A stretch of 64,000 bases of DNA, from assembly GCA_963575745.1 (NCBI GenBank), contig CAUYUJ010013891.1, positions 525,500-589,499 of the forward strand, read 5' to 3'. The notes beneath the pieces are model-generated. The model had not been told where the DNA came from and searched no databases. It worked only from the letters and a program-made list of their open reading frames with translations. Positions 49,185 through 64,000 of this stretch are shown piece after piece (positions within the stretch are counted from its first letter, which is position 1; each line of letters opens with the position of its first letter). This DNA is from Prorocentrum cordatum. Taxonomy: Eukaryota; Sar; Dinophyceae; Prorocentrales; Prorocentraceae. A program made the translations under genes and the position numbers.

Positions 49185-49964
49185 TCAACACAAGCGTGCG
49201 CGCGCGTTCTTGCGAAGTCTTAAGAAAACCACATGCTTGTCAACACTTTCATAACATGCTGCCAAGCGGGCTTCGAGCGGGCATGTTAAAATCGTTCGAA
49301 CGCCCTTGCGCGCGTGCTGGGTTGGCACGATCCGTTTCAAATAATACCATGCGGACCACTCTCGCACGTCTGCCGCGCGCGCATGTCGAATTCTTTCCAA
49401 AACCTTCATCACCGACGCGAAGACGCCGTCATCGCCGTCGGCGTGATTAGTATGGGCGCCGTCAGCGGCTGCCCCGTCGTCGCTGTCAGCATCGTCGCCA
49501 GCATCGCTACTATCATCATTGTGTATACCTTCGTCGACGTTGCCATGATACCGCTCCCGCCCAAGTCGCCGACTCGCACTGAAATGTTCGCTAATTAAGA
49601 TGTGCCTAGCGGTCAGCGCCACCGCGTTCGCGTCGGCCGCGCCAAAATAGCTGGCGGCTGCGCGCGCGAGCACGCACGGGCTAGTGCGGCCGCAGAAATG
49701 CACCAGCCAACACCCAGCACTCATCGCAATCGCTCCCGCATGGGTTTTGCAAACCAAGTTGCGGGTGGGTGGGTGTGATGATTGGGCGAGCAGTGGAATT
49801 GACGTTCTCAACTTCGGCAAGTGAATTGCACCACGCAGGTGGCGCCACATATGTTGCGCCACAGAGTGCACCGCATATACATATATATACACACATACAT
49901 GGGTGAGTGAGTTTGTGAACGTTGATTTCAGATAGGTTAGCGAAGGGGCCAAGGGGCGGGACAT
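49185..49964 (-). other. Minus-strand open frame in a CG-rich family copy (259 codons), status unknown
   Basis: The stretch PLLAQSSHPPTRNLVCKTHA to ARAAASYFGAADANAVALTA is also open on the minus strand in the copies at 23242-23550, 23949-24344 and 27419-27769, with recognisably similar residues (PLLAQS(S/P)(H/R)PP(T/A)RNL(V/L)CKT). It could be an unknown protein of a repeat element or chance in CG-rich DNA. No known domain, no start-site evidence. I do not call it a gene. Confidence 0.3.
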
Positions 49965-50139
49965 GTCCGGTTGTTTCGGACGTTGTCTCCAGGTCTTGCC
50001 TGCGCCCGAAACCGTTTCAAGGTCAAGGCATCATGACTCGCTGATGCGAGTTTCGAGGTGCCTCCGCGGGCACCCTCTTGCAGGTCTCCCCCGCGGCACC
50101 CAGAAGGGTGCCGCTGTGTATCCACCAGACGGGCCCGCC

Positions 50140-51627
50140 ATGGCGCAGGGGGGAGATGCGGCTGCGGCGGCCGCGCCGCCCGGGCTAGACGCTGTCCCCG
50201 CAGGCGAGCCGCCGCCGCCCTCCCCAGAGGCCCTGACGGCCGACGCGAGCCAAGGCAGCTGGTGGCTCGCGGCGGCGTGGGGGCGTCTCGCCCTGACGGG
50301 CGGACGAGGAGCCCTGGCCGCCCAGCTGGGCTCGACGGGGCGGGCCCGCCTCGCGGGCCTCACCGTCTGCGGGCCGGTGGGCATCCTCGCCACGGCGCGG
50401 GCCGTGCGACAGGCATGGTGGCTCTACTGCGACCAGGAGGCCACGAAAGCGCAGATGGCGCCCCTCACGGCGCAGATGCAGCAGCTGGCCCTGTCGGGAG
50501 CGATGGGGATGCCAGGCGGGGGATTCCCAGGAGGCGGCCCGCCCGACAGTGCGATGCACGGGCGGGCCGACGTCGGAGCGCCGCCGCCGGGGATCCCGCA
50601 GGTGCCAGGCGCGTCGATGGCGGGGCCGGCCACAGGGCCCGTCGGGCCCCCGGCGGGACTGGCTGCCCAGGCACCCGCGGGCGCGGCGAGCCTGGACGCG
50701 CTGGGGGCGTGGGCGGGCTTGGCCGCCCCGACCGCCCCAGAGGCGGGTGCCGCCGCCGCCGCAGGGAGCTCGCCTGGCGCCCCGCAGCACAGGCCGCCCG
50801 AGCTGGACAACAAGGTGCGGCAGCAGGCCAGGCAGGTGAAGGAGCTGCTGACGGCGCTCGCGAACGCCAGGGGTCAGGACTACATGCGGGGGCGACGCTT
50901 CTGGTCCAACACCCACGCGCTGGACTCGAGCGGGCAGCTGCTGCCCGAGGCGAAGCGCCTCCTGCCTGGGTTCGGCTACGTGGGCGAGCAGACGGCGACG
51001 GCCCCTCGCCACGAGGAGCTAGGGGCCGCGCTGGACCGCCTCGCGTCGGAGGCCGCGCTGACCGCAGGCGCGGGCATCTGGCAGGCCAGCCCCAGTCAGG
51101 GCCTGGCCGCCGCCGCAGGAGGCTCGGAGGAAACGCGGTGGGGCTCTCCACTACCCGCGGACCTCCAGCGAGCAGCCCCCGAGATCTACAGGGCGACGAG
51201 AGGCGAGGGGTCGACGGGCGCACGCGACTGGATTGCTCGGCGATACCGGGGGAGCAGGACCAGCCCAGCGTGGGTCGACCTGTGGACCCTAGCCACGTCG
51301 GTCGACTTCCGCCTCCGCGACTGCAGCAGTGATCTGGAGATCGCGCAGGCGCTGGCCAGGGACGACATGATGGAGATCGGACTCCGCCGCCTAGCGGCAT
51401 ACGTGTACGAGCAGCGGAGCGGCGACCGCGTCGGGGCCCAGCACATGTTGGGCATCGCGCCGCCTGGCGGCTCAGCCGACGCGGCCCCGACGTGGATGGT
51501 GGCCTCAGCGACGATGCGCTCGAAGATCGAGCACCAGCGCAGGGAGAGAGTCGAGGCCGAGGCACGCCACAGGCGCAAGAACGGGGTCTGGGCAGGTGCC
51601 AGGGAGAATCCGGGGAAGTCGTTTTAA
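50140..51627 (+). CDS. Intact gag-like retroelement protein (ORF1 type), orphan
   Basis: The longest undamaged non-repetitive frame in the window: 495 codons from ATG 50140 (MAQGGDAAAAAAPPG) to TAA; the frame is open upstream to 49963, but a CTCTTGCAG acceptor-like site near 50090 favours the later start. Order: Pro/Ala-rich N-terminus; a hydrophobic/tryptophan segment (WWLAAAWGRLAL...LAGLTVCGPVGIL); a Gly/Pro-rich linker; a basic region (DNKVRQQARQVKELLTAL); and a C-terminal helical block (YRGSRTSPAWVDLWTLATSV, ALARDDMMEIGLRRLAAYVY, MLGIAPPG, WMVASATMRSKIEHQRRERV). I recognise the C-terminal pattern from gag-like ORFs of dinoflagellate retroelements. No pol follows: 51650 onward is minisatellite. 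It could be a co-opted or recently stranded gag. Confidence 0.6.
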   Translation: MAQGGDAAAAAAPPGLDAVPAGEPPPPSPEALTADASQGSWWLAAAWGRLALTGGRGALAAQLGSTGRARLAGLTVCGPVGILATARAVRQAWWLYCDQEATKAQMAPLTAQMQQLALSGAMGMPGGGFPGGGPPDSAMHGRADVGAPPPGIPQVPGASMAGPATGPVGPPAGLAAQAPAGAASLDALGAWAGLAAPTAPEAGAAAAAGSSPGAPQHRPPELDNKVRQQARQVKELLTALANARGQDYMRGRRFWSNTHALDSSGQLLPEAKRLLPGFGYVGEQTATAPRHEELGAALDRLASEAALTAGAGIWQASPSQGLAAAAGGSEETRWGSPLPADLQRAAPEIYRATRGEGSTGARDWIARRYRGSRTSPAWVDLWTLATSVDFRLRDCSSDLEIAQALARDDMMEIGLRRLAAYVYEQRSGDRVGAQHMLGIAPPGGSADAAPTWMVASATMRSKIEHQRRERVEAEARHRRKNGVWAGARENPGKSF

Positions 51628-53527: not shown

Positions 53528-54233
53528 TTAACCCAGCTTAGCTTAGCTTAGCTTAGCTTAGCTTAGCTCAGCTCAGCTCAGCTTAGCTTGGCTTGGCTTA
53601 GCTTGGCTTGGCGTGGCGTGGCTTAGCTTAGCTTAGCTTAGCTTAGCTTAGCCTAGCCTAGCTTAGCTCAGCTTAGCTTAACTTAGCTTAGCTTACCTTC
53701 GCTTAGCGCAGCGCAGCGCAGCATAGCGCAGCGCAGCACTAGCACATCACATCATATCATATCATACCCAAACATAGCATAGCAACGCATAGCACAGCTC
53801 AGTATATCATAGCATATCACATCGCAGCATAGCATAACACAGCACAGCATATCATGTCATAGCGCATGATATCATAGCATAACATAACCTAGCATAGCAT
53901 AGCACATCATGGCATAGCGTAGCATAGGATATTTCATCATATCATGTCGCAGCATAGCATAGCATAGCATATCATAGCATAGCATATCATAGCTTAGCGC
54001 AGCAAATCATACCATACCATAGCATAACCTATAATATCATATCATAACATAGCATATCATAGCGCATCATATCACAGCATATCATAGCCTAGCATAACAC
54101 AGTGCACACGACCGTATCCTAGCATAGCATATCATAGCATAGCGCATCATAGCGTAGCATAGCAACGCATAGCATCGCATAGCATAGCATAGCATAGCAT
54201 AACGCAGCGTAGCATAGCATAGCATAGCAGCAA
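53528..54233 (+). repeat. Pentanucleotide array drifting from (AGCTT)n to (CATAG)n
   Basis: 53528-53700 is TTAGC/TTGGC pentamers; 53700-53740 switches through CGCAG; 53740-54233 is CATAG/CATAT pentamers with many variants. The period of five is kept through most of it although the motif changes. Confidence 0.95.
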
Positions 54234-54295
54234 GGCAAAGGCAAAGCAACAGCAGCAACAGCAAAGCCAAGCACAAGCAACGCAAAGCCGGACCT

Positions 54296-54530
54296 GCAGT
54301 GCTGAACAGCCTGCAGCTCTTGCAGGAACCGCGAGCAGTGCTGAACAGCCTGCAGCTTTTGCAAGCAGTGCTGAACAGCCTGCAGCTCTTGCAGGAGCCG
54401 CGAGCAGTGCTGAACAGCCTGCAGCTCTTGCAGGAGCCGCGAGCAGTGTTGAACCTAGTGCAATCAGTGCTGAACACTCTGCAGCACTTGCAGGAGCCGC
54501 GAGCAGTGCTGAACAGCCTGCTGTCGCTGG
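54296..54530 (+). repeat. 39-bp tandem repeat, ~6 copies (one shortened)
   Basis: Unit GTGCTGAACAGCCTGCAGCT + CTTGCAGGAGCCGCGAGCA. In one plus frame it reads [13 protein letters not shown], an amphipathic 13-residue repeat; the frame is open 54299-54754 but then runs into CAAAGC and GATGTA repeats. CTGCAG...CTTGCAG lets each unit form a small hairpin. The minus frame reads Ser-Thr-Ala-Arg-Gly-Ser-Cys repeats. I do not call a gene. Confidence 0.9.
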
Positions 54531-54534
54531 GTGC

Positions 54535-54825
54535 ACAGCAAACGCAACAGCAAAGCAAAGCAAAAACAACAGCACAAGCAAAAGCACAAGCAAAGGCAAG
54601 GCAATGCAAAGCAAAAGCAAAACCAATGCGAAATTGTAGATGTAGCTGTGGATGTAGATGTAGGTGTAGATGTGGATGTAGGTGTAGATGTAGATGTAGA
54701 TGTAGGTGTAGATGTAGGTGTAGATGTAGATGTAGATGTGAGTCTCGCTGTTGATGTTGATGTAGATGTAGATGCAGGTGTAGATGTTAATGTAGCTGTC
54801 GGTGAAGATGTAGATGTTGTTTTCC
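54535..54825 (+). repeat. CAAAGC and GATGTA simple repeats
   Basis: GCAAAAGCAAAGC-like hexamers to ~54630, then GATGTAG(G/A)TGTA hexamers to ~54825. Both are imperfect. Confidence 0.9.
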
Positions 54826-54839
54826 TAGATGCTCCAACT

Positions 54840-56180
54840 CCTAGGTAGGGCCGCACTGGGATCAATTTTTGACAGGGATGGTGGGGGGCGGGTCGTCATG
54901 GTGTCCTCATGGTTCCTGGTTGGATTCCGGTCGCCTGGGGGAGGGGGTGTACATCAATAAGGAACAGTGGTAAACTTTTTACCCTGAGGGGAAGACGAAG
55001 GTTGGAAAAACTAATTCGTCAAACCACGTCCGCCCAGACGGCGGTCGGGATTTCCTTTCCCCCGGGGAATGTTCGCCCCCACCGCCCGCCGCCGGCAAGT
55101 GGCGAGGAGGAGGAGGAGGTGGACGGAGGAGGTGGACGGAGGAGGAGGGAGGCGGAGGAGGAGGAGGACGACGACGTGTCCCGCCCGTCCGCCCGACCGA
55201 CTCGCCAATGACGACGACGTTGCCTTGTCGTCGGCGGCGAGGGGGTGGGGTGGGGGTGCAGGGGGGGTCTCGCTGGGGAGGGGGGGGGGTCCTGGTTCTG
55301 GAGAAGGGGGTGTTCTGGCGGGCCAGGCCAGGACTTTGCACCAGTGAAGCTTACAGAGATGTTTCTCGGTCCGAGATCAGTTGCAGTTTCTCGCTCGTGT
55401 GTGAGGATGACGTCAATTTGGGTCAACCGTGCAGTGTTGCGCGCGTACACATATTCGCCCCTTGGCTTGTCCTTGGCGGGTGGTCAGGGCGAGCCGTCCA
55501 GGGATGGTCCAATCGGATCGTCTCTGGTATCTCAACATGGTGTTCCCGCTGCAACGATCGCCAGGTGTCAGGATCGATACGTTTCTCTCGTCCTTCTGAA
55601 TGGAGATAGTTTTCTGGTGTCCGCCGATATTATCGGAACCGTCCGTCCCCCGTCCTCCCTCCCAGGATAACCTGACCTTGTCGGTTGCGCAGGTCCGAAG
55701 CGGGCACGCAGTACCGGCGCGCGCGGGCACACGTGGGGTTACCCAGGGCGAAAAGGTCGGGCTATCGGCCCGCACCTCCCTCCCCCCACAGGGTCACCTG
55801 GGTCATAACCGAAAAATGCAGAACGGTCTCGTGGCGATCTCGCCCGGGTGTGGGCCCCAATGATTCGGGAGCCGCTTCCTGCTTCTCGTGGCCCTCTCCC
55901 TCGGCCCGCTCCGTGGCCCCCCCATCGGCGCTACCCAAACGTATTGATACAATGTGCGCGTCGCCCTCACATGGGCGACGCGCGCGGCGAGAAATTTTGC
56001 AGTACCTGCTCCGTTGCGGGCTTGGGAAACGACCTGCTACGTGATCGTTGTACTTCGGAGGGGCGCCAATTATCCGTAAGCGCTTCGCCCCCTGCCGCCG
56101 GCCCCCTCTCTCGGAGAATGGGCCATGGAAGAGCGAAGTCATGAGGCTTTGGCTTCGCCGTGAAGCAGTGTCGGGACTTG
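54840..56180. other. Spacer, no recognised gene
   Basis: 55095-55180 is GGA-rich and 55240-55300 G-rich. The remainder has mixed composition with overlapping frames up to ~140 codons, none with a known domain or clear splice signals. Confidence 0.5.
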
Positions 56181-56189
56181 TTTGTTTTT

Positions 56190-56596
56190 CGACCCTGACC
56201 CTACGGATCTGCGTGAGAGGTGCCGCCGAATTTCAGAAATGTGGCAAATCCTTTGTGTTTTTGGACCCTGACCCCGCCGATCTGCGTGAGGGGTGCCAGC
56301 AAATTTCAGAAATGTGGCACATCCCGTGTGTTTTTGCACCCTGACCCCGCCGATCTGCGTGAGGGGTGCCACCGAAGTCAGAAATGTGGCACATCCCATG
56401 TGTTTTTGGACACTGACCTCGCCGATCTGCTGCCAGACATGTTGCAAATCCCTGATGTTTTTGGACCTTGACTCCGCCGATCTGCGTGAGGGGTGCCAGC
56501 AGATTTCAGAAATGTGGCAAATCCCGTGTGTTTTTGGACCCTGACCCCGCCGATCTGCGTGAGGGTTGCCACCGAATTTCAGAAATGTGGCAAATC

Positions 56597-56656
<60 letters not shown>

Positions 56657-56700
56657 ACCCTGACCCCGCCAGTCTGCGTGAGGGGTGTCAATTTTTACCC
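56190..56700 (+). repeat. Second, unrelated 73-bp minisatellite, ~7 copies, with (GT)n insertion
   Basis: GATCTG(C) at 56206, 56279, 56352, 56424, 56479 and 56552 gives spacings of 73, 73, 72, 55 and 73; a last unit at ~56671 is pushed 119 bp away by a (GT)n expansion (56600-56651). Unit phrases: CTGCGTGAGGGGTGCCA, TTTCAGAAATGTGGCA, CCGTGTGTTTTTGGACCCTG. Confidence 0.95.
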
Positions 56701-56774
56701 ACCCCAGCAATTCAGACAGTACGTTTTGGCGGTGGTAAAAATGCCCGTTTTGGGCCTCCCCCCCTCGCGCGATC

Positions 56775-56875
56775 CATCAACAAGGAACAGTAAGCAGCAA
56801 GAAGCAGAACTGTAACAAGGAGCAGTAAGCAGCAAGAAGCAGCACTGCAACAGTGGAAACTGGAAGCTGCAACTG
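56775..56875. repeat. Short direct repeat (~44 bp, two copies)
   Basis: AACAAGGA(A/G)CAGTAAGCAG + CAAGAAGCAG(A/C)ACTG occurs at ~56778 and ~56814, followed by related CAACAGTGGAAACTGGAAGC pieces. Confidence 0.7.
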
Positions 56876-56932
56876 GTACAGGAAACTGCGAACCTTAGGC
56901 CTACAGCCTGGTGGCCCCACAAGGGGGCCAGC

Positions 56933-57070
56933 GGATACACCACCACCAGCCCTGGCCAAGTACTTATTGGGCCCTGGATCGGTGTACAGACCTCCTGGCC
57001 TAGGCCAGGAAGGCCTGTACACCAGTCCAGGGCCCGCGATGGGCCTGGCCAGGGCTGGTGGTGGTGTATT
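56933..57070. repeat. Long near-perfect palindrome, ~68-bp arms
   Basis: The centre TCCTGGCCTAGGCCAGGA (56993-57010) is exact. Moving outward, TGTACACC..TCCAGGGCCC pairs with GGGCCCTGGA..GGTGTACA, and outermost ATACACCACCACCAGCCCTGGCC pairs exactly with its complement at ~57047-57069. The only sizeable mismatch is an ~11-bp internal segment. No target-site duplication is obvious. Confidence 0.9.
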
Positions 57071-57448
57071 GTTTGGAGCTCTCCTATTACTGTATGCTCG
57101 GGCCGGACGCACGCCTCCGAGGAGGGCACGCAGTACCACCATGTCCTTGTGCGTCCCCACCTCGCGGCGTGCGCGCCGCCGTGCCCTGTGCTCTCTCCAC
57201 CTCCACCAGCAGCCTCGCGCACACGCCGCCTCCCCAGCGACGCCTCGCCGCCGTCGGCCTGGCCGCCTCGCTAGCCCGCGGTTCCCGCCCGCCGCGCGCA
57301 CCTCGTCGGAGCGCGCGCGCGCCGTCCTCCCGACCAATGTGCGCCTCTCTGCCCCGTGGAGGCACGGCTCCGCGTCGGCCTCTGGTCCCCCCCCCCTCGT
57401 TGCCTCCGCCTCTCCTTTTCTCCTCCCGCTGCTCCTGCTGCTGCTCCT
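57071..57448. other. GC-rich sequence between palindrome and retroelement
   Basis: CGCGCG and CTCC-rich; frames are open on both strands, without recognisable domains. Ends in (CTGCTG)n just before the element's left terminal repeat. Confidence 0.5.
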
Positions 57449-57512
57449 GGGTTTGCTTTAGCATGGGATTCAGGAAGTGAGTGAGGGTTTTCGCTTGCAG
57501 CTTTTCCTCTCA
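57449..57512 (+). repeat. Left 64-bp terminal direct repeat
   Basis: From GGGTTTGCTTTAGCATGG to GCTTGCAGCTTTTCCTCTCA. The next base makes CTCTCAG, an acceptor-like site with a pyrimidine tract, 30 bases before the first ATG (57543). Confidence 0.9.
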
Positions 57513-57542
57513 GGGAGGGGAGGCCAGTGCCGCGGGTTTTGC

Positions 57543-58112
57543 ATGGCACTGGCGCTGCGGCCGCAGCACGCCGCCGTCGGCGTCGTGGGCGCCGTGCTGC
57601 TGCGCCACGCGGACCTGCTCTACCAGGCCTTCCTGCACCAGGCCGGCTGGGGCGCCTCTGGCGGCGTGGAGGCGGCGGTGAGCGCCGCCCGCAAGGCCGC
57701 GGAGGCGGCCACCATCGCCGCGGCCGCGGCTGCAGGGGCGGGCGCGGCCCGCGAGGAGCAGTGCCCCCAGCCGCCCGAGTGGCTGAGTGCGCCGGTGCCT
57801 CTGGCCTGCCCCGAGCCGCCGGCCTGCGAGTGCCGGTGTGAGGGCGTTGGCGAGGAGGCGACCGACGGGCACGAGCTGACGCAGCAGCCCGCCTGGCAGG
57901 TGCTGGGGTCGGCCCTAGGTCACATCCTGGTGGTGAGCGTCGGCAAGTGCTGTGCCCGCCGTCGCCGCGATGGCGAGCAGGCGCGCCCGGCCGCCGCTGA
58001 GGATAGCGGCGAGCGCGGAGGAGCCGAGCCTGCGCGTGCCGCAGTGGAGAGGGATGGCAGTGCTCCGACTGGCCAGCGGCCGCGCCGTCGGGGAGGAGGC
58101 GTTCTGGAGTGA
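57543..58112 (+). pseudogene. Element N-terminal region 1 (gag-like leader, hydrophobic)
   Basis: Starts MALALRPQHAAVGVVGAVLL with hydrophobic segments (HAAVGVVGAVLLRHADLLYQ and LGHILVVSVG) that could be membrane-associated, an Ala-rich helix and a Cys/Pro-rich stretch (CPEPPACECRCEG). The frame stops being protein-like after ~57960 as coding appears to shift to the next frame. Confidence 0.5.
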
Positions 58113-58716
58113 GCTCTTCCCTGGCGGCTATGTGGCCGTCTATTACAGTGACGACAATGTGTGGCATGAGAGAGTGCTGCTGGGCCAACTGGATGCTCAG
58201 CACTGGGTGATAGAGACGCCCGACCATGACATGTACATCGAGAACATGGCCTGCTCCAGTCCTGAGGACGGCCCTTGCCGTGCCGTGGTGCTGGATGACA
58301 GTGGGGCCCTGCCCGTCTTCTTGCGGGGCCGAACCTACCGCTTCAAGGAGTACCTGGGGGAGGAGGATTTGTTGGCGCGCCTGCGGGAGGCAGGTCAGCT
58401 GGCAGTCGAGATGGGCTTCGACAGGCCCGCGCACACGCTGTACCTGGACTCCCTGGGGGAGCGCAAGCCGCTGTCCGTTGCCGAGGCTGCGGTGCGCCGC
58501 CGCCGCAAGGGCCCGCCGGTGCCGCCGCCTGCGGAGCCGCCCCCGGCCATCGGGGACAGTGCCGCTGGGTGGCCGTCTGGAGATCGGCCCGCAGCTGACC
58601 ACCTCGACGGGGGGCTCTTGCACGAGGAGGTGGGCGGCACCGCGACGCCCCCCGCCCTGGACGACGCCGGGGAGGTCGCGAGGGATGGAGACGCTAGGCT
58701 CCATCAAGCGCGGTGA
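57990..58716 (+). pseudogene. Element N-terminal region 2
   Basis: Frame shifted from the preceding piece. Clear coding core FWSELFPGGYVAVYYSDDNV, WHERVLLGQL, WVIETPDHDMYIENM and RFKEYLGEEDLLARLREAG, followed by a Pro/Arg-rich tail. The function of this region in YR elements is unknown to me. Confidence 0.55.
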
Positions 58717-59431
58717 CGAGATAGAGCTGACGGACAGCGACAAGGTGATGGGCGAGAGGGCGCTTCACAGGCTCCCAGACGGCCAGGTCGTCACCGCCTG
58801 CCCCGCCTCCAGCCTGGCCGCCACTCAGGAGGTGCGCGGCGCTGGGGATGGTGCTGACGCCCGCGCGCTGTCGCCGGTGGTCTACGATCCAGGAGGACGC
58901 CGCTGGTCGGAGTTCTCGGCGGCGGTCTCTCGCATGCGGGTGGGGCCAATGGATGACTTCCCACTCGAGGGCGAGAGGTCCGCGCTGTGGCTCTCCCAGT
59001 ATGCGCGGGACCACGGCGGGACCTTCGACGCGCGGCAGACGAAGTGGGCCATGGAGCAGCGCATCTCGCCCGACTCCACGGCCTCCTTGATGCGCGACCT
59101 GGTGGGGCTGGCGCTGGACTTGTCCGTGTGCGACGACCAGTGCGACGGCGGCAACCTTGCCAGCGTGGAGGTGCTGGCGCGGCTGTGCCAACTGGTGGAG
59201 GAGACCAGCGGGGCGCTGCAGCTGGAGGGTATCGAGCACTACCTGGGCCGCGACAGGACAGGAGGTCTGCGCCGCGGCGTGGCGCTCAACCCGTCGCTGG
59301 CGCAGTGCGCGACGGAGAAGAAAAGCAAGGAGACGGAGGTGGCGAAGCAGCGGGGGAAGGCTCGCGAAGAGGAGGGGGCCGCCAAGAAGAACATAGGAGG
59401 CAAGTCAAGCGCTGGCAAGGCCAGCCCCTGA
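58685..59431 (+). CDS. Element gag-like ORF
   Basis: ATG at 58685 opens a 248-codon frame to TGA near 59431. Helical core: WSEFSAAVSRMRVGPMDDFP, ERSALWLSQYARDHGG, LMRDLVGLALDLSVCDDQCD, GGNLASVEVLARLCQLVEET. The C-terminus is lysine-rich (KKSKETEVAKQRGKAREE), fitting nucleic-acid binding. It may be a separate protein or the continuation of the previous frame. Confidence 0.6.
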   Translation: METLGSIKRGDEIELTDSDKVMGERALHRLPDGQVVTACPASSLAATQEVRGAGDGADARALSPVVYDPGGRRWSEFSAAVSRMRVGPMDDFPLEGERSALWLSQYARDHGGTFDARQTKWAMEQRISPDSTASLMRDLVGLALDLSVCDDQCDGGNLASVEVLARLCQLVEETSGALQLEGIEHYLGRDRTGGLRRGVALNPSLAQCATEKKSKETEVAKQRGKAREEEGAAKKNIGGKSSAGKASP

Positions 59432-59439
59432 GGGAAGGC

Positions 59440-60085
59440 AGCGCTGCGGAGGCCCCCGGCCGCAGCGGCGCGAAGAAGGGGCCAATTCATCGTCGGAACG
59501 CCGCCGTTGGAGAGGGGGGTGGTTCTTCCCCCCTCGCTTGCCCGCGGATAGAGCAGCGCGACAGTGGTAGCAAGCGATTGTCGAGGGGCACTGAGCAGAG
59601 AGTTCGTCGACGATTGAAGGTCCAGGAGGCCACGTGCAACACCGTTCGCGCGATCAACCGCCTGGCAGGTATTGAGACGCCCGAGGTGGAGTCCGTCACC
59701 GGCTTGAGTGGCCCCTCCGCCGAGATCTACAGTGATGCGCGGGCGCTGCGCTCGGCCCGCGCCCCCGTGCCGGGGAATTCGTTTACTCCGAAGGAAGCCT
59801 TCGACGAGCTTCTCGGGGGCACGCCCTCGACCTACACTGATAGCGACGAGACTTCCCCCGTTCGGCCCTACTCGCGCGACTTGGTCAGCTGGCCGGCCAA
59901 AGGTAACGAGCCCGCGCCCCTGGCCACCAACGCGCCGCTGGACATGCCCCAGCACTTCACAGAGGGCCAGCGCGACGCGTGGCTGCGGCAGCCGCGCGAG
60001 GTGCAGCAGGCGAGGCGGGGCGAGGGCCTGCCGACGCTGTATGGCGATGCCATTTTGAAGGAGGACCGCAGCGCAACGGCCTCGC
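59440..60085 (+). pseudogene. Element linker between gag and RT
   Basis: Frame reading RRRLKVQEATCNTVRAINRL, GLSGPSAEIYSDARALRSAR, SFTPKEAFDELLGG and PQHFTEGQRDAWLRQPREVQ. No D[ST]G protease motif is seen. It shifts into the RT frame at about 60060-60090. Confidence 0.55.
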
Positions 60086-61200
60086 CCGCGGGATCTTCCG
60101 CCTGGCGCGTCGTCGGAAGGAGGCCATCAATATATTCTTCGTCAACATGAAGGACGGCAATATCCGCATCGTAGTGGACTGCGGTCGCAGCAACCAACAC
60201 TTCGTGGATGCACCCAAGGTGCACCTCGTCTCCGGCAGCAGCTTCGCCGAGGTGGAGGTCCCAGAAGGTCGTCAGCTTTTCTATGCAGGAGGAGACGTCC
60301 AGAACGCGTTCTACCAGCACCGCATGCCAGCCTGGCTGCTGCCCTACTCCGGACTGGACGCAGTGAAGGCGAATGAGGTCGGCATCGCGCAGTTGGATGG
60401 GCAGTACCTGGCTGGGGACACCATGCTCTATCCCTTGATGAATGTGGTTCCCATGGGCTGGAAGTGGGCACTATGCATCGTTCAGCGCATTCATGAGCAC
60501 GTGCTCGATGGAGTGCCCGAGCTGGGGCCACGACGTCGGGCGATTGACTTCCGGCCACCGCCCCTGCCAGAGGGGGGCGCGCTGCGCACGGTCTACGTGG
60601 ACAACTTGCTGATCGAGGGCCGCGACAGGGATGAGGTGACGCGGCTGCGCCGAGCGGCGTGCGAGGCGCTGCAGGCGGCGGGCTACGCCGCCCATGACGA
60701 GTCGGACGCAGCCGAGAGCATGGAGATGCTGGGCGCCGCGCAGCAGGGGCAGCCTTGCCGCGTGGCCGTTGCGGCCAAGCGGCGCTGGAGGCTCAGGAGG
60801 GCGCTGGAGTGGATCCATCGCCGGCGGCCGCCGATGACCAGCCGCCAGCTCGAACGGCTGATTGGCCATTTCACGTTCGTTGCCTTGCTAAAACGTGAAC
60901 TCCTCAGTTGTCTGCGTGCTAGCTATGACTTTGATCGAGGGAATTTTAAGGAGCCCAGGATCCTTTGGAAAAGCGTTTTCCACGAACTCCGCTCGATCCA
61001 AGGGCTTCTGATTTCTCCCTCTCGGGATCTGGATCCGAAATGGTCCCAGGAGGTGCTGGCTTATGATGCATGTGAGTCTGGGCACGGTGCAGTAAGGGGG
61101 GCTTGGACGGTGGGGGATGCACAGTCTGTAGGTAGGTGGCATGAGAGATGGCGGTTCAAGAACGACGAGGACCCAGCAGGGTATAACCCTTCGCGCCAAC
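60080..61200 (+). pseudogene. Element reverse transcriptase and start of RNase H
   Basis: RT motifs in order: FVNMKDGNIRIVVDCGRSN; GGDVQNAFYQHRMP with the first catalytic Asp at 60294-60296; NVVPMGWKWALCIVQ; and VYVDNLLIEG at 60591-60620, where the usual YxDD is YVDN (60594-60605). Then QLERLIGHFTFVALLKRELL (thumb/connection) and the first RNase H strand VLAYDACESGHGAVRGAW with Asp at 61065. RNase H continues in another frame, so this copy is broken at about 61190. Confidence 0.8.
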
Positions 61201-61640
61201 GCGTTGAAGGACGTCTCGGTGCTCGGGGCTGGAGTCTGGGAAGATAAGGAGGTCGATTTCAGCAACGTCTACGTTAATAGGGAGTTCCCCGAGGTGCCCG
61301 CGAACGTGGTAGAGGCTACGTCGTGGTCCGTCGAGCGATTCCAACCCGTCTTCACGTATGGGCCGACACATGTCACCGAGATGCGTGGTTTCTTGGGAGC
61401 TATTCGTCAGGCCGTGCAGGATCCAAAAGATTGGGGGCGTTCGTGGTTGATATTGGGAGATAATCTTGGGCTCATCTTGTCTCTCTCCAAGGGCAGGTGT
61501 CGAGATCCACGTCTTCTCATGCTTCGCCGTAAGGCAGCAGCGTGGGCTCTAGCCACTCGATCCAGATTCGTATGTCGATGGATACCTTCTGAACTTAATC
61601 CCGCCGATGGACCCTCCCGCAAGCGAGAGCCATCTACGAA
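61190..61640 (+). pseudogene. Element RNase H, C-terminal part
   Basis: Carries the remaining catalytic residues: Glu in HVTEMRGFLGAIRQ (61378), Asp in LILGDNLGLILSLSKGR (61459) and Asp in IPSELNPADGPSRK (61606). Together with Asp 61065 the D-E-D-D set is complete although split by a frameshift. Confidence 0.75.
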
Positions 61641-61699
61641 GAGCAACGCAGTCAGCGCCAGCTTGGCGGCCAAATCATCTTCGCTCGAGGAGCAGGTCA

Positions 61700-62929
61700 G
61701 ATCAGAACCAGCAGGCGACAAGCCAGCCGAGGGTGCCCGGCAGGTCGAGCGAGACGCAGGAGGGCAAGCGGCAGAAGGCCGGCCTGAACGTGTCGAGCTT
61801 GGTCGGGGCCAACCGCCGAGCTCCTGGTCATCCGATCCTGGGCCTGCTGGAACTCAAGGAGGCCGAGCGCGAGAAGGAGCTGAAGTTGCAGGAGAGGCGA
61901 GCCGCGAGGCGACTGGCAACCCACGGGGAGCTGCGGGACACGACAGAGGGCCCCGGTATCACCGAGGAGGCCTCGCTGACGCTGAAGACCCGAGGTCAGT
62001 ACAAGCGACGGCTCTCGGATTTCCAGACGAAGCAGAGTGTCGTAGACCTCAGCCTGCGCCCGGCGGAGCTGGACGCTCACGTGGTCTGCCACTTCGATCG
62101 GCTCTTTCTCGAGGGCAAGGCGCCGTCGACAAGAGAGAAGCTCATTGCAGCGATACAGTACGTGGTACCTGTGAACAATGCCAAGGGTATGATGACCCTG
62201 CCCAGAGCGACGCGGTCACTGCGGGGTTGGCGCAGCTTGGTGCCCAGGAGGGCCCGCCGACCCCTGCCGTGGGAGGTGCTGGCCGCGATCGCGGTGAACC
62301 TGCTGCGCATGGAGGGGCTGGGCATGGCGCTGGCCTGGCTGCTAATGGTGGACGCCTACATGCGGCCGGGGGAGTGCCTGGACTTCAGAACCACCCAGGT
62401 GCTCAGGGTGACGTCGCAGCGGCACATGGCGCTGGCGGCCATCCTGCTGCACCCCGTCGAGCACGGCCAGTCCAGCAAGGCGGGGGCGGTGCGCGAGAGC
62501 CTCATCGTGAGTCGCCTCTGGCGGTCAGACATACTGAAAATGTACGTGGACGCCCGCCCCAGCACGGGGCCCTCGTGGGACTTCAGCCTGAAGCAGATGA
62601 ACGCGAGCTTCATCGCCGTATGCGGCGTGGTTGGCATCAGCTACCTGAAGCCAGTCCTGTACATGGAGAGGCACTCTGGTGCCAGCCTGGATCGACTCCA
62701 CAACCGCCTCGACCTCGCCGAGGTGCAACGTCGGGGAGGATGGAGGAGCATGGCGTCGGTCAGGAGGTACGAGAAGAGGGCCTTGGTGCAGGGCGTCTAC
62801 AGCAAGCTGGACCAGCGCAGCAGTCTCATGTGCACCAGGTGCTCGCTCGAGCTCGAGGCAGCCATGCTAAGAGCTGGCCAGCAGCTCCGCGCACACCGAG
62901 GCGTGCCGCCAGGAGAGGTTTCTTCGTGA
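61700..62929 (+). CDS. Element tyrosine recombinase (YR)
   Basis: Open to TGA at 62927-62929. N-terminal helical region (LLELKEAEREKELKLQERRA, SLTLKTRGQYKRRLSDF: SAM-like DNA-binding part), then the catalytic domain: Arg in MVDAYMRPGECLDF (62363), Arg-His in LYMERHSGASLDRL (62669), Trp in RRGGWRS (~62741) and nucleophile Tyr in SVRRYEK (~62768). All key positions are present in one frame, so the recombinase could still be active. YRs of this type integrate circular retroelement DNA. The start is unclear, since it follows the RNase H frame by a shift. Confidence 0.75.
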   Translation, partial: DQNQQATSQPRVPGRSSETQEGKRQKAGLNVSSLVGANRRAPGHPILGLLELKEAEREKELKLQERRAARRLATHGELRDTTEGPGITEEASLTLKTRGQYKRRLSDFQTKQSVVDLSLRPAELDAHVVCHFDRLFLEGKAPSTREKLIAAIQYVVPVNNAKGMMTLPRATRSLRGWRSLVPRRARRPLPWEVLAAIAVNLLRMEGLGMALAWLLMVDAYMRPGECLDFRTTQVLRVTSQRHMALAAILLHPVEHGQSSKAGAVRESLIVSRLWRSDILKMYVDARPSTGPSWDFSLKQMNASFIAVCGVVGISYLKPVLYMERHSGASLDRLHNRLDLAEVQRRGGWRSMASVRRYEKRALVQGVYSKLDQRSSLMCTRCSLELEAAMLRAGQQLRAHRGVPPGEVSS

Positions 62930-63462
62930 TTGAGGTGTTCAGCGGGTGCGGCAGCTTCAGCCGAGCCGCTAAGCGCAGAGGGATCGATGCTTTCGCCTTC
63001 GATATCTTGCAGGGCCCACAGGGCGATGTCACGCGCGTCAGTGTGCAACGACGCATCCGAAAGTTGATTGCACATCCTCGTTGTCTCGGCCTGCTCTGCG
63101 CCCCCCCGTGTACCACGTGCAGTATTGCGAGAAGGCCGATGATCCGCTCCAAACAACGCATCCTTGGGCTGCCGGGTGTTGAGCCCCATGTTCGAAGACA
63201 GCTCGAGATGGGGACCCGCCTCGTGCAGCTGACTGCCCAGTTCTGCGCTTACGCTTCTCAGCGCAACGTACCGTGGGTCATCGAGAACCCGCGAACGTGC
63301 TTGATTTGGTCCACCCCTGAGTTTCAAGGCCTCAGTCGAGGCCTCGACGTCGAGAACATCGTGACTCACACATGTGGTTTCGGGGCCAGATGGAAAAAAA
63401 CCTACGACCCTGTGGTGCGCTGGACTGATAGGAATCGAGAACACGACTTTCAAGTGTGGTAG
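62911..63462 (+). pseudogene. Element C5-methyltransferase-like protein, N-terminal part
   Basis: Motif I FFVIEVFSGCGSFSRAAKRR (SAM binding), a motif IV-like CAPPCTTCSIARR with the candidate catalytic Cys at 63109-63111, and a motif VI-like VPWVIENPRTCLIW with ENP (63283-63291) instead of the usual ENV. Then THTCGFGARWKKTYDPVVRW. It overlaps the YR stop in a different frame and has no ATG of its own near motif I. The frame stops at 63462, but the C-terminus continues in the next frame. Confidence 0.7.
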
Positions 63463-63703
63463 CTACGGAACTAGGCCCTGTGAGTACTCAAAGCAGCCCC
63501 ACATCGTGTTGACTGGTGGGGGCCCTCTCGGGGTCCGCTGGGCTAAGCGAGCGGCCGCCTATCCTTATCGCTTTGGGTCCTGCCTGGCCAGAATCTTCAT
63601 CGACAATGGGTTCGCTAGAGTACTTGGGGCCTCTTGCCGTTCCGGTATTTCGGTGGTGCCTTGGGCGAAAGCTAGACTGAATTGGAGCACCTCGAACCGC
63701 TAA
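63436..63703 (+). pseudogene. Element C5-methyltransferase-like protein, C-terminal part in shifted frame
   Basis: Reads CEYSKQPHIVLTGGGPLGVR then AKRAAAYPYRFGSCLARIF; the YP...LA..I ending resembles the C-terminal motif X region of C5 methylases. One frameshift near 63440 separates it from the rest. Ends in TAA near 63703. Confidence 0.55.
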
Positions 63704-63848
63704 CGAGTTTTGCGTCTTTGGGGTGGCATCAATGTTCTCAGGGCGCCGACGCGCCCCCGCTCTGTGCCCCTGGATCCGCGCCGCCTCGACGCACCAAGGA
63801 TTGCAACAGAAATCAGGTTCAGGAAAAAACTGGAATGGCATGACTGAT
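63704..63848. other. Element 3' non-coding region
   Basis: 145 bp between the last codon and the right terminal repeat, with a CGCCGACGCGCCC cluster. If the element has Ngaro-type split repeats, this would be the B1 region; no matching B2 is visible in the 88 bp remaining after 63912. Confidence 0.45.
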
Positions 63849-63912
63849 GGGTTTGCTTCAGCATGGGATTCAGGAAGTGAGTGAGGGTTTTCGCTTGCAG
63901 CTTTTCCTCTCA
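63849..63912 (+). repeat. Right 64-bp terminal direct repeat
   Basis: Same as 57449-57512 except TTTCAG for TTTTAG near base 11. The following base is C, so the CTCTCAG acceptor-like site of the left copy becomes CTCTCAC. Confidence 0.9.
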
Positions 63913-64000
63913 CCGTCCAACAGCCCCACCGCCGCCCTTTGTTTTTTGGAATCCCAGCCCCCCTTGCAGGGAAACCGTTCAGTTTTGTGCTAGTGTTGCT
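63913..64000. other. Flank beyond the element
   Basis: 88 bp to the window end with no recognised feature. It does not match sequence inside the element by eye. Confidence 0.4.

Follow-up and report, generated by a model that had tools for sequence, protein, structure and literature searches.

A Tyrosine Recombinase Gene Nested between RNase H and a Cytosine Methyltransferase-Like Domain in a Retrotransposon Group of the Dinoflagellate Prorocentrum cordatum

INTRODUCTION

Retrotransposons that unite a tyrosine recombinase (YR) with a cytosine methylase are already known from dinoflagellates. The published SymbioDIRS-Dnmt3 elements of Symbiodinium are DIRS elements with a Dnmt3-type methylase; methylation of cDNA was proposed for them, and their Dnmt3 domain is reported to be capable of de novo CG methylation (de Mendoza et al., 2018, PMC5890265). 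Here, we analyze a decayed copy of a mobile YR retroelement from Prorocentrum cordatum, located in a 64,000-nucleotide stretch of contig CAUYUJ010013891.1 (assembly GCA_963575745.1, positions 525,500 to 589,499 of the forward strand; hereafter, the window), together with its relatives in the same genome. Like SymbioDIRS-Dnmt3, it is a dinoflagellate YR retrotransposon with repeats in the order A-coding-B-A-B, a cytosine methylase-like domain in the same Pol protein as the reverse transcriptase (RT), and a divergent RT (PMC5890265). The SymbioDIRS-Dnmt3 methylase, however, is of the Dnmt3 type and was found with the Pfam DNA_methylase profile, whereas the C5-methyltransferase-like domain of the Prorocentrum element (hereafter, MTase) has no Pfam methylase match and resembles phrog_757. 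Moreover, the SymbioDIRS-Dnmt3 YR is described as a separate open reading frame (ORF), whereas here it is nested in Pol, in the gap between RNase H and MTase (PMC5890265).

Other YR elements share part of this plan. In DIRS1-like elements, Pol likewise consists of RT, RNase H, and a methyltransferase, and the Pol and YR frames overlap in about half of those annotated, but the terminal repeats are inverted rather than split and direct as in Prorocentrum (PMC3266345), and the usual methyltransferase is a Dam-like adenine type, unlike that described here (PMC5890265). Ngaro elements have the same A1-ORFs-B1-A2-B2 order, with ORF1, RT-RNase H, and YR (PMC8547959, PMC3266345); they are described without a methyltransferase and usually without ORF overlap, in contrast to the MTase and nested YR of seven out of seven Prorocentrum families (PMC3266345). 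PAT elements also have split direct repeats, and no such MTase is mentioned for them in that description (PMC3266345). The Prorocentrum element works as a member of the DIRS order that is neither DIRS1-like (it has no inverted ends) nor an ordinary Ngaro (it has a methyltransferase and overlapping frames). A nested YR accompanied by a C5 methylase was not found in the literature searched, which excluded subscription journals and Repbase, and the words DIRS, retrotransposon, and methyltransferase do not occur in the main text of the article describing the P. cordatum genome (PMC10666404).

THE RECOMBINASE GENE LIES INSIDE THE POLYMERASE FRAME

We compared the window family with six more distant families of this genome (L051 to L056). 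In all seven, RNase H and MTase belong to a single frame, ORF2, which also includes RT in L051 to L056; the RNase H-MTase frame encloses the complete YR gene, which is shifted by +1. ORF2 has 1480, 1651, 1606, 1489, and 1477 amino acids (aa) in L051 to L055, respectively, and at least 1356 aa in L056; the YR ORF within it measures 436 to 536 aa in these six families. The first YR ATG falls between -26 and +31 nt from the codon for the RNase H motif NPAD (or NVAD, NAAD) in six of the seven families (+301 in L053), and the YR stop lies no more than 45 nt from motif I of MTase in every family. An initial sequence-only reading of the window, which placed a methylase after the recombinase, was right as to the order on the DNA and misleading as to the protein: MTase forms the C-terminal portion of the frame that encodes RT and RNase H, within which YR is nested.

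Across YR (425 to 474 codons), the ORF2 frame contains no stop codon in any of the seven families, and the third frame contains 10 to 18. To assess chance, we permuted synonymous codons within YR 20,000 times in each family, leaving the encoded protein and the codon usage unchanged. The mean number of stops after permutation was 6.3 in the window family (P = 0.0004), 7.9 in L051 (P = 0.0001), 6.4 in L052 (P = 0.0003), 4.75 in L053 (P = 0.0045), 4.3 in L054 (P = 0.0075), 8.05 in L055 (P = 0.0001), and 5.8 in L056 (P = 0.0012). Control frames (450 RT-RNase H codons plus MTase in six families, 24 tests) held 3 to 18 stops and were never open. The seven families are partly related, the RT being 85% identical between L052 and L055 and 74% between the window family and L051, and they were chosen for long MTase-bearing frames or, in the case of L056, from RT matches, which favors intact copies.

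The two overlapping frames differ in constraint. Between L052 and L055, the ratio of nonsynonymous to synonymous substitution rates (dN/dS) in the nested region is 0.24 for the frame of YR, as against about 2 for that of the linker, the part of ORF2 that runs over YR. The linker frame is kept open and its residues are not conserved; its ratio near 2 partly mirrors constraint on the other frame and is no evidence of positive selection. Because recognizable relatives of YR exist, YR is probably the older frame, and the linker is probably a later overprint that carries translation to the methylase. Identities of RT, YR, and MTase correlate at 0.96 to 0.98 over 15 family pairs, a value owed mostly to two close pairs, with the rest near 0.3.

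ONE ELEMENT BOUNDED BY SPLIT DIRECT REPEATS

The window repeats had first been described as 64 bp long with one difference, 6400 bp apart. The spacing and the single difference stand, and the length is 65 bp (64/65 identical; 6400 bp from start to start). A search of the genome (4.13 Gb, 21,875 contigs) with this repeat, A, yielded 34 matches, 26 of which form 13 same-strand pairs 5.8 to 9.3 kb apart, the window pair included; the remaining eight are single or partial. Because 13 such pairs occur across the genome, the window repeats are not a chance feature. RT, RNase H, YR, and MTase were found in order by tblastn in all 13 pair regions and therefore belong to one element, which confirms the earlier proposal that YR and MTase are parts of a single dinoflagellate YR retroelement that carries a methylase-like domain of the C5 type. 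This element is one of a large group in Prorocentrum. Among 20 loci searched for MTase, 17 gave a match; in L046 and L048 the domain lies beyond the piece examined, and L047 gave none.

A second repeat, B, recurs in full about 145 bp after the right A (A2) in 10 of the 13 pair loci and is partly visible in an eleventh (L042); the L033 locus ends too early. The layout is A1-ORFs-B1-A2-B2, that is, split direct repeats. Comparison of termini in collected copies, suggested at the outset, thus settled on this arrangement, and the simple direct terminal repeats first assumed are ruled out by B2 in other copies. The initial remark that the ends are unlike the inverted ends of DIRS-1 held: none of the six inverted pairs in window positions 54000 to 64000 is a long-range inverted end repeat, and no inverted end repeats (minimum, 30 nt) were detected in L051 to L053. 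In L052, a distant family, A1, B1, A2, and B2 are all visible; in L051 and L053, the B pair is visible and A1 lies outside the piece or was not detected.

Ten copies retain both outer ends. Eight measure 6.64 to 6.78 kb, L043 is shorter (6.17 kb), and a large insert brings L041 to 8.9 kb. The two A repeats are identical at 61/64 to 65/65 positions over the 13 pairs, and the two B repeats range from 120/128 to complete identity in 10 copies. L041 (C14403) and L042 (C6602), both counted among the 13 pairs, share a left flank and an extra insert and probably derive from a single insertion that was duplicated along with the sequence around it.

In all 10 copies that retain both outer ends, TCC directly precedes the element, and in eight it also directly follows. 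B1 abuts A2, and the flanks read TCC-element-TCC with no recognizable target-site duplication, a layout that fits a circular intermediate. In L052, an identical 8-bp sequence, CCCTCCTG, marks both element ends and the B1/A2 junction, the pattern expected from recombination of a circle junction with a matching target. Targets differ between families: L051 sits at TCC repeats, L052 at a CT-rich site with the core CCCTCCTG, and L053 beside an ATC repeat.

THE METHYLASE-LIKE DOMAIN

Unbroken MTase is 262 aa long in L031, L037, L038, L040, L041, and L043. Its best profile match is phrog_757, a phage family annotated "DNA methyltransferase," with E values of 1.1e-13 to 1.9e-13 for L037, L043, and L051 and weaker values for L052 (1e-8), L055 (2e-7), and L053 (0.003). 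The MTase of L037 and L043 has no Pfam match at E up to 1, ORF2 of L051, L052, L053, and L055 has no PF00145 match at E up to 0.1, and no PDB sequence matched MTase. No phage relative was found by tblastn, and none was confirmed in prokaryotic or viral contigs. Four relatives appeared in a large protein collection, one of which (P0021) begins with a linker-like stretch before MTase.

The domain shows C5 methylase motifs in order: motif I as FxGxG, motif IV as Pro-Cys, and motif VI as Glu-Asn, here in the form ENP and not ENV. The Glu-Asn-Pro of motif VI is invariant in a nine-sequence alignment, in which Pro-Cys is kept wherever motif IV is reached, and all 18 loci with a readable motif IV have Pro-Cys. 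Two candidate types were rejected: a Dnmt3-type methylase, given that there is no Pfam methylase match, and the Dam-like adenine methylase usual in DIRS elements, given that motif IV is Pro-Cys. The latter was judged against motif IV of adenine methylases.

Between subfamilies, MTase is under purifying selection (dN/dS, 0.10 to 0.26). The ratio is 0.12 to 0.23 for L031 compared with L037, L038, L040, and L041, 0.12 to 0.26 for pairs with the divergent L043 or L051 (dS being saturated for L051), and 0.10 between L052 and L055. Among the closest copies, L037, L038, L040, and L041, it rises to 0.24 to 0.87, as expected if recent decay dilutes old constraint. L054, in which the MTase end is altered, was excluded from these distances.

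Among 150 MTase matches listed from 8594 candidates, 41 lie in frames of at least 1200 aa, and frame lengths recur (five of 1480, five of 1606, four of 1651, and three of 1362 aa). Seventy-five of 117 RT matches, the first 47 included, have a same-strand downstream MTase among the matches listed, a few rows being fragments of one place. The other 42 do not show absence of the domain, since 150 of 8594 candidates were listed and one of the 42 (L056) has it. At least 129 PF00145 matches lie elsewhere in the genome, none of them on contigs of the listed MTase matches. Some of these PF00145 frames are of repeated length, many of 402 aa (e.g., C8291:259824 and C6500:8434), which suggests that the genome holds other methylase-bearing repeats, such as the long interspersed nuclear element (LINE) type of Symbiodinium.

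RECOMBINASE AND POLYMERASE

Alongside RT and RNase H, the element carries a tyrosine recombinase in place of a DDE integrase, the combination by which YR retrotransposons (DIRS order) are recognized, with single Pfam scores below curated cutoffs. The window pieces score weakly against Pfam, and the identity of the element therefore rests on its relatives. The YR ORF has at least 17 homologues at E ≤ 0.01 (best, 1.4e-100; 8000 candidates scored). One of them, P0015, matches PF00589 at 2e-5, slightly under the curated cutoff, and its E value against the integrase family phrog_1 is 1e-6 (6e-8 for P0002). Another, P0003 of P. cordatum, is annotated as an EF-hand domain-containing protein and starts with a piece of the element's YR, which suggests a gene model, or a host gene, fused to element sequence. 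Searches of window pieces or MTase profiles against Pfam, NCBIfam, and PDB gave no useful match, RT found nothing useful in viral contigs, and PADLOC, Rfam, and spliced-leader searches gave nothing informative.

Motif C of RT reads YVDN (window, about 60594-60605) in 15 of the 22 loci tabulated from L031 to L053; in the other seven it is altered with the final Asn kept, and YxDD occurs in none of the 22. By eye, L054 to L056 also read YVDN. The pattern points to loss of the second catalytic Asp throughout the clade. YVDN has been reported from nematode Bel/Pao elements (PMC554778, PMC9094657), and a brief literature search turned up no YR element with it.

LAYOUT OF THE WINDOW COPY

Between the window repeats, the ORF1 region, RT, RNase H, YR, and MTase follow one another on the plus strand (Table 1), and the motifs of the four enzymes stand in the order initially described. 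The copy is broken, with frame changes, placed by eye, in ORF1 at about 58.7 kb, in ORF2 at about 60.1 and 61.24 kb, and in MTase at about 63.4 kb; its RT lies in a different frame from the 776-aa RNase H-MTase frame. ORF1 is split over two frames here and unbroken, at 502 to 503 aa, in L041 and L051. No B2 was found in the first 1.4 kb beyond the right edge of the window. At its expected site, from about window position 64000 onward (locus L015), stands unrelated sequence rich in CCAAGA-type repeats, as a deletion or an insertion would leave it. Elsewhere in the window, positions 49963-51627 (plus strand) hold an ATG-started ORF of 554 aa, the middle of which, by eye only, resembles a retroelement structural protein.

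TABLE 1 Parts of the Prorocentrum element in window coordinates
Feature	Position	Strand	Remarks
A1, left A of the split direct repeat, left element end	57448..57512	+	TCC precedes
ORF1 region	57937..59431	+	No known domain; Gag-like by position only
ORF2, RT part	59907..61244	+	Motifs GDVQNAFY, PMGW, YVDN (motif C)
RNase H	about 61240-61623	+	Motifs LGDN...NPADGPSR; NPAD at 61597
ORF2 frame, RNase H through linker over YR to MTase	61132..63459	+	776 aa, stop-free
YR gene	61607..62929	+	ATG at 61607, stop at 62927-62929; ends VRRYEK...; inside ORF2 frame, +1
MTase (C5-methyltransferase-like domain)	about 62914..63703	+	Motifs FSGCG, APPC, ENP
B1, directly 5' of A2	63721..63847	+	Stretch found a second time beyond A2 in other copies; may begin slightly further left
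A2, right A	63848..63912	+	

DISCUSSION

We consider it likely that the window element is a decayed DIRS-order YR retrotransposon of the form A1-ORF1-ORF2-B1-A2-B2, the ORF2 of which would encode an RT-RNase H-linker-MTase polyprotein with YR wholly nested in the +1 frame. Several observations weigh against this. RT, YR, and MTase have diverged too far to give strong single Pfam matches, and YVDN lacks the second Asp of YxDD. Three of the 24 control tests gave P < 0.05 (smallest, 0.017), all in the +2 frame, and there may be a slight general shortage of stops in alternative frames. C5 homology of MTase is supported to a moderate degree: hhalign, run against a reference alignment of three phage C5 methylases and two PF00145 proteins encoded in this genome, gave a probability of 46 to 56% over about 62 columns, with motif I opposite motif I and PPC opposite PCQ. 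Finally, some linkers contain methionines that might serve as starts, located 64 codons before motif I in 8 of the 11 window-family frames read and 4 codons before it in L051, in both of which a separate start may exist, and 20, 32, and 213 codons before it in L052. Such methionines would suit an MTase encoded by a separate gene with a start codon or a trans-spliced mRNA of its own, and dinoflagellates do trans-splice mRNAs. The linkers of L054, L055, and L056, however, contain no methionine, and that of L053 has a single one 521 codons before motif I, so that an own start is unlikely in these families; a separate gene would also leave the open ORF2 frame unexplained, and we regard it as quite unlikely. 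The same open frame counts against a -1 ribosomal frameshift near the YR stop, which would fuse YR to MTase and make the long ORF2 frame over YR incidental. The short distance from YR stop to motif I in all families and the -1 position of the MTase frame relative to YR would accommodate such a fusion, but it does not account for 0 stops over the whole of YR in seven out of seven families, which makes it very unlikely.

MTase might also have lost catalysis and taken on another role, such as DNA or RNA binding. Its divergence and missing Pfam methylase match and its ENP where the reference C5 alignment has ENV would agree with this, but the Pro-Cys of all readable loci, the invariant ENP of the alignment, and the low dN/dS make it unlikely; L054 keeps Pro-Cys and has no in-frame ENP. 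The frame changes between pieces of the window copy could be read as a YR element and a methylase element inserted side by side, with 65-bp repeats unrelated to element ends. That account is refuted by the shared order in 13 of 13 paired copies, each with all four enzymes, and in the six more distant families, and its probability is vanishingly small.

For the nested arrangement, a mechanism can be proposed. Keeping ORF2 free of stops through YR would allow ribosomes in the Pol frame to reach MTase while leaving linker residues free to vary. The whole element would be transcribed, the transcript reverse-transcribed by the YVDN enzyme, and a circle closed at the B1-A2 junction. YR would then insert this circle at a short repeat, TCC in the window family, giving the boundaries observed, in which no target-site duplication is recognizable. 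Judged by selection and motifs, MTase is a conserved functional domain, and as part of Pol it may methylate cytosines of the element's own cDNA or circle. This idea of self-methylation is drawn by analogy from the cDNA methylation that de Mendoza et al. proposed for SymbioDIRS-Dnmt3. Taken further, and with somewhat more doubt than conviction, an old and successful dinoflagellate clade may have overprinted its YR: the Pol frame would have lost all stops there to become a disposable linker and acquired a terminal cytosine methylase domain of phage type, in a capture independent of the Dnmt3 and LINE cases, so that every Pol would mark the cDNA circle before the nested YR inserts it into a microsatellite.

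YR elements with a Pol-borne cytosine methylase were already known; what is new is a whole YR nested between RNase H and a non-Dnmt3 methylase and kept so across very divergent families. The small MTase, the circle junction, the YVDN polymerase, and the microsatellite targets would offer testable pieces of this system. If the proposed plan is true, a complete catalytic gene of some 430 to 540 codons is held within another gene in an alternative frame, in families only about 30% identical, which would make a clean natural case of overprinting with two frames under opposite constraint. It would also add a further, apparently non-Dnmt3 cytosine methylase to those of retroelements, suggesting repeated selection on such elements for marking their own cDNA.

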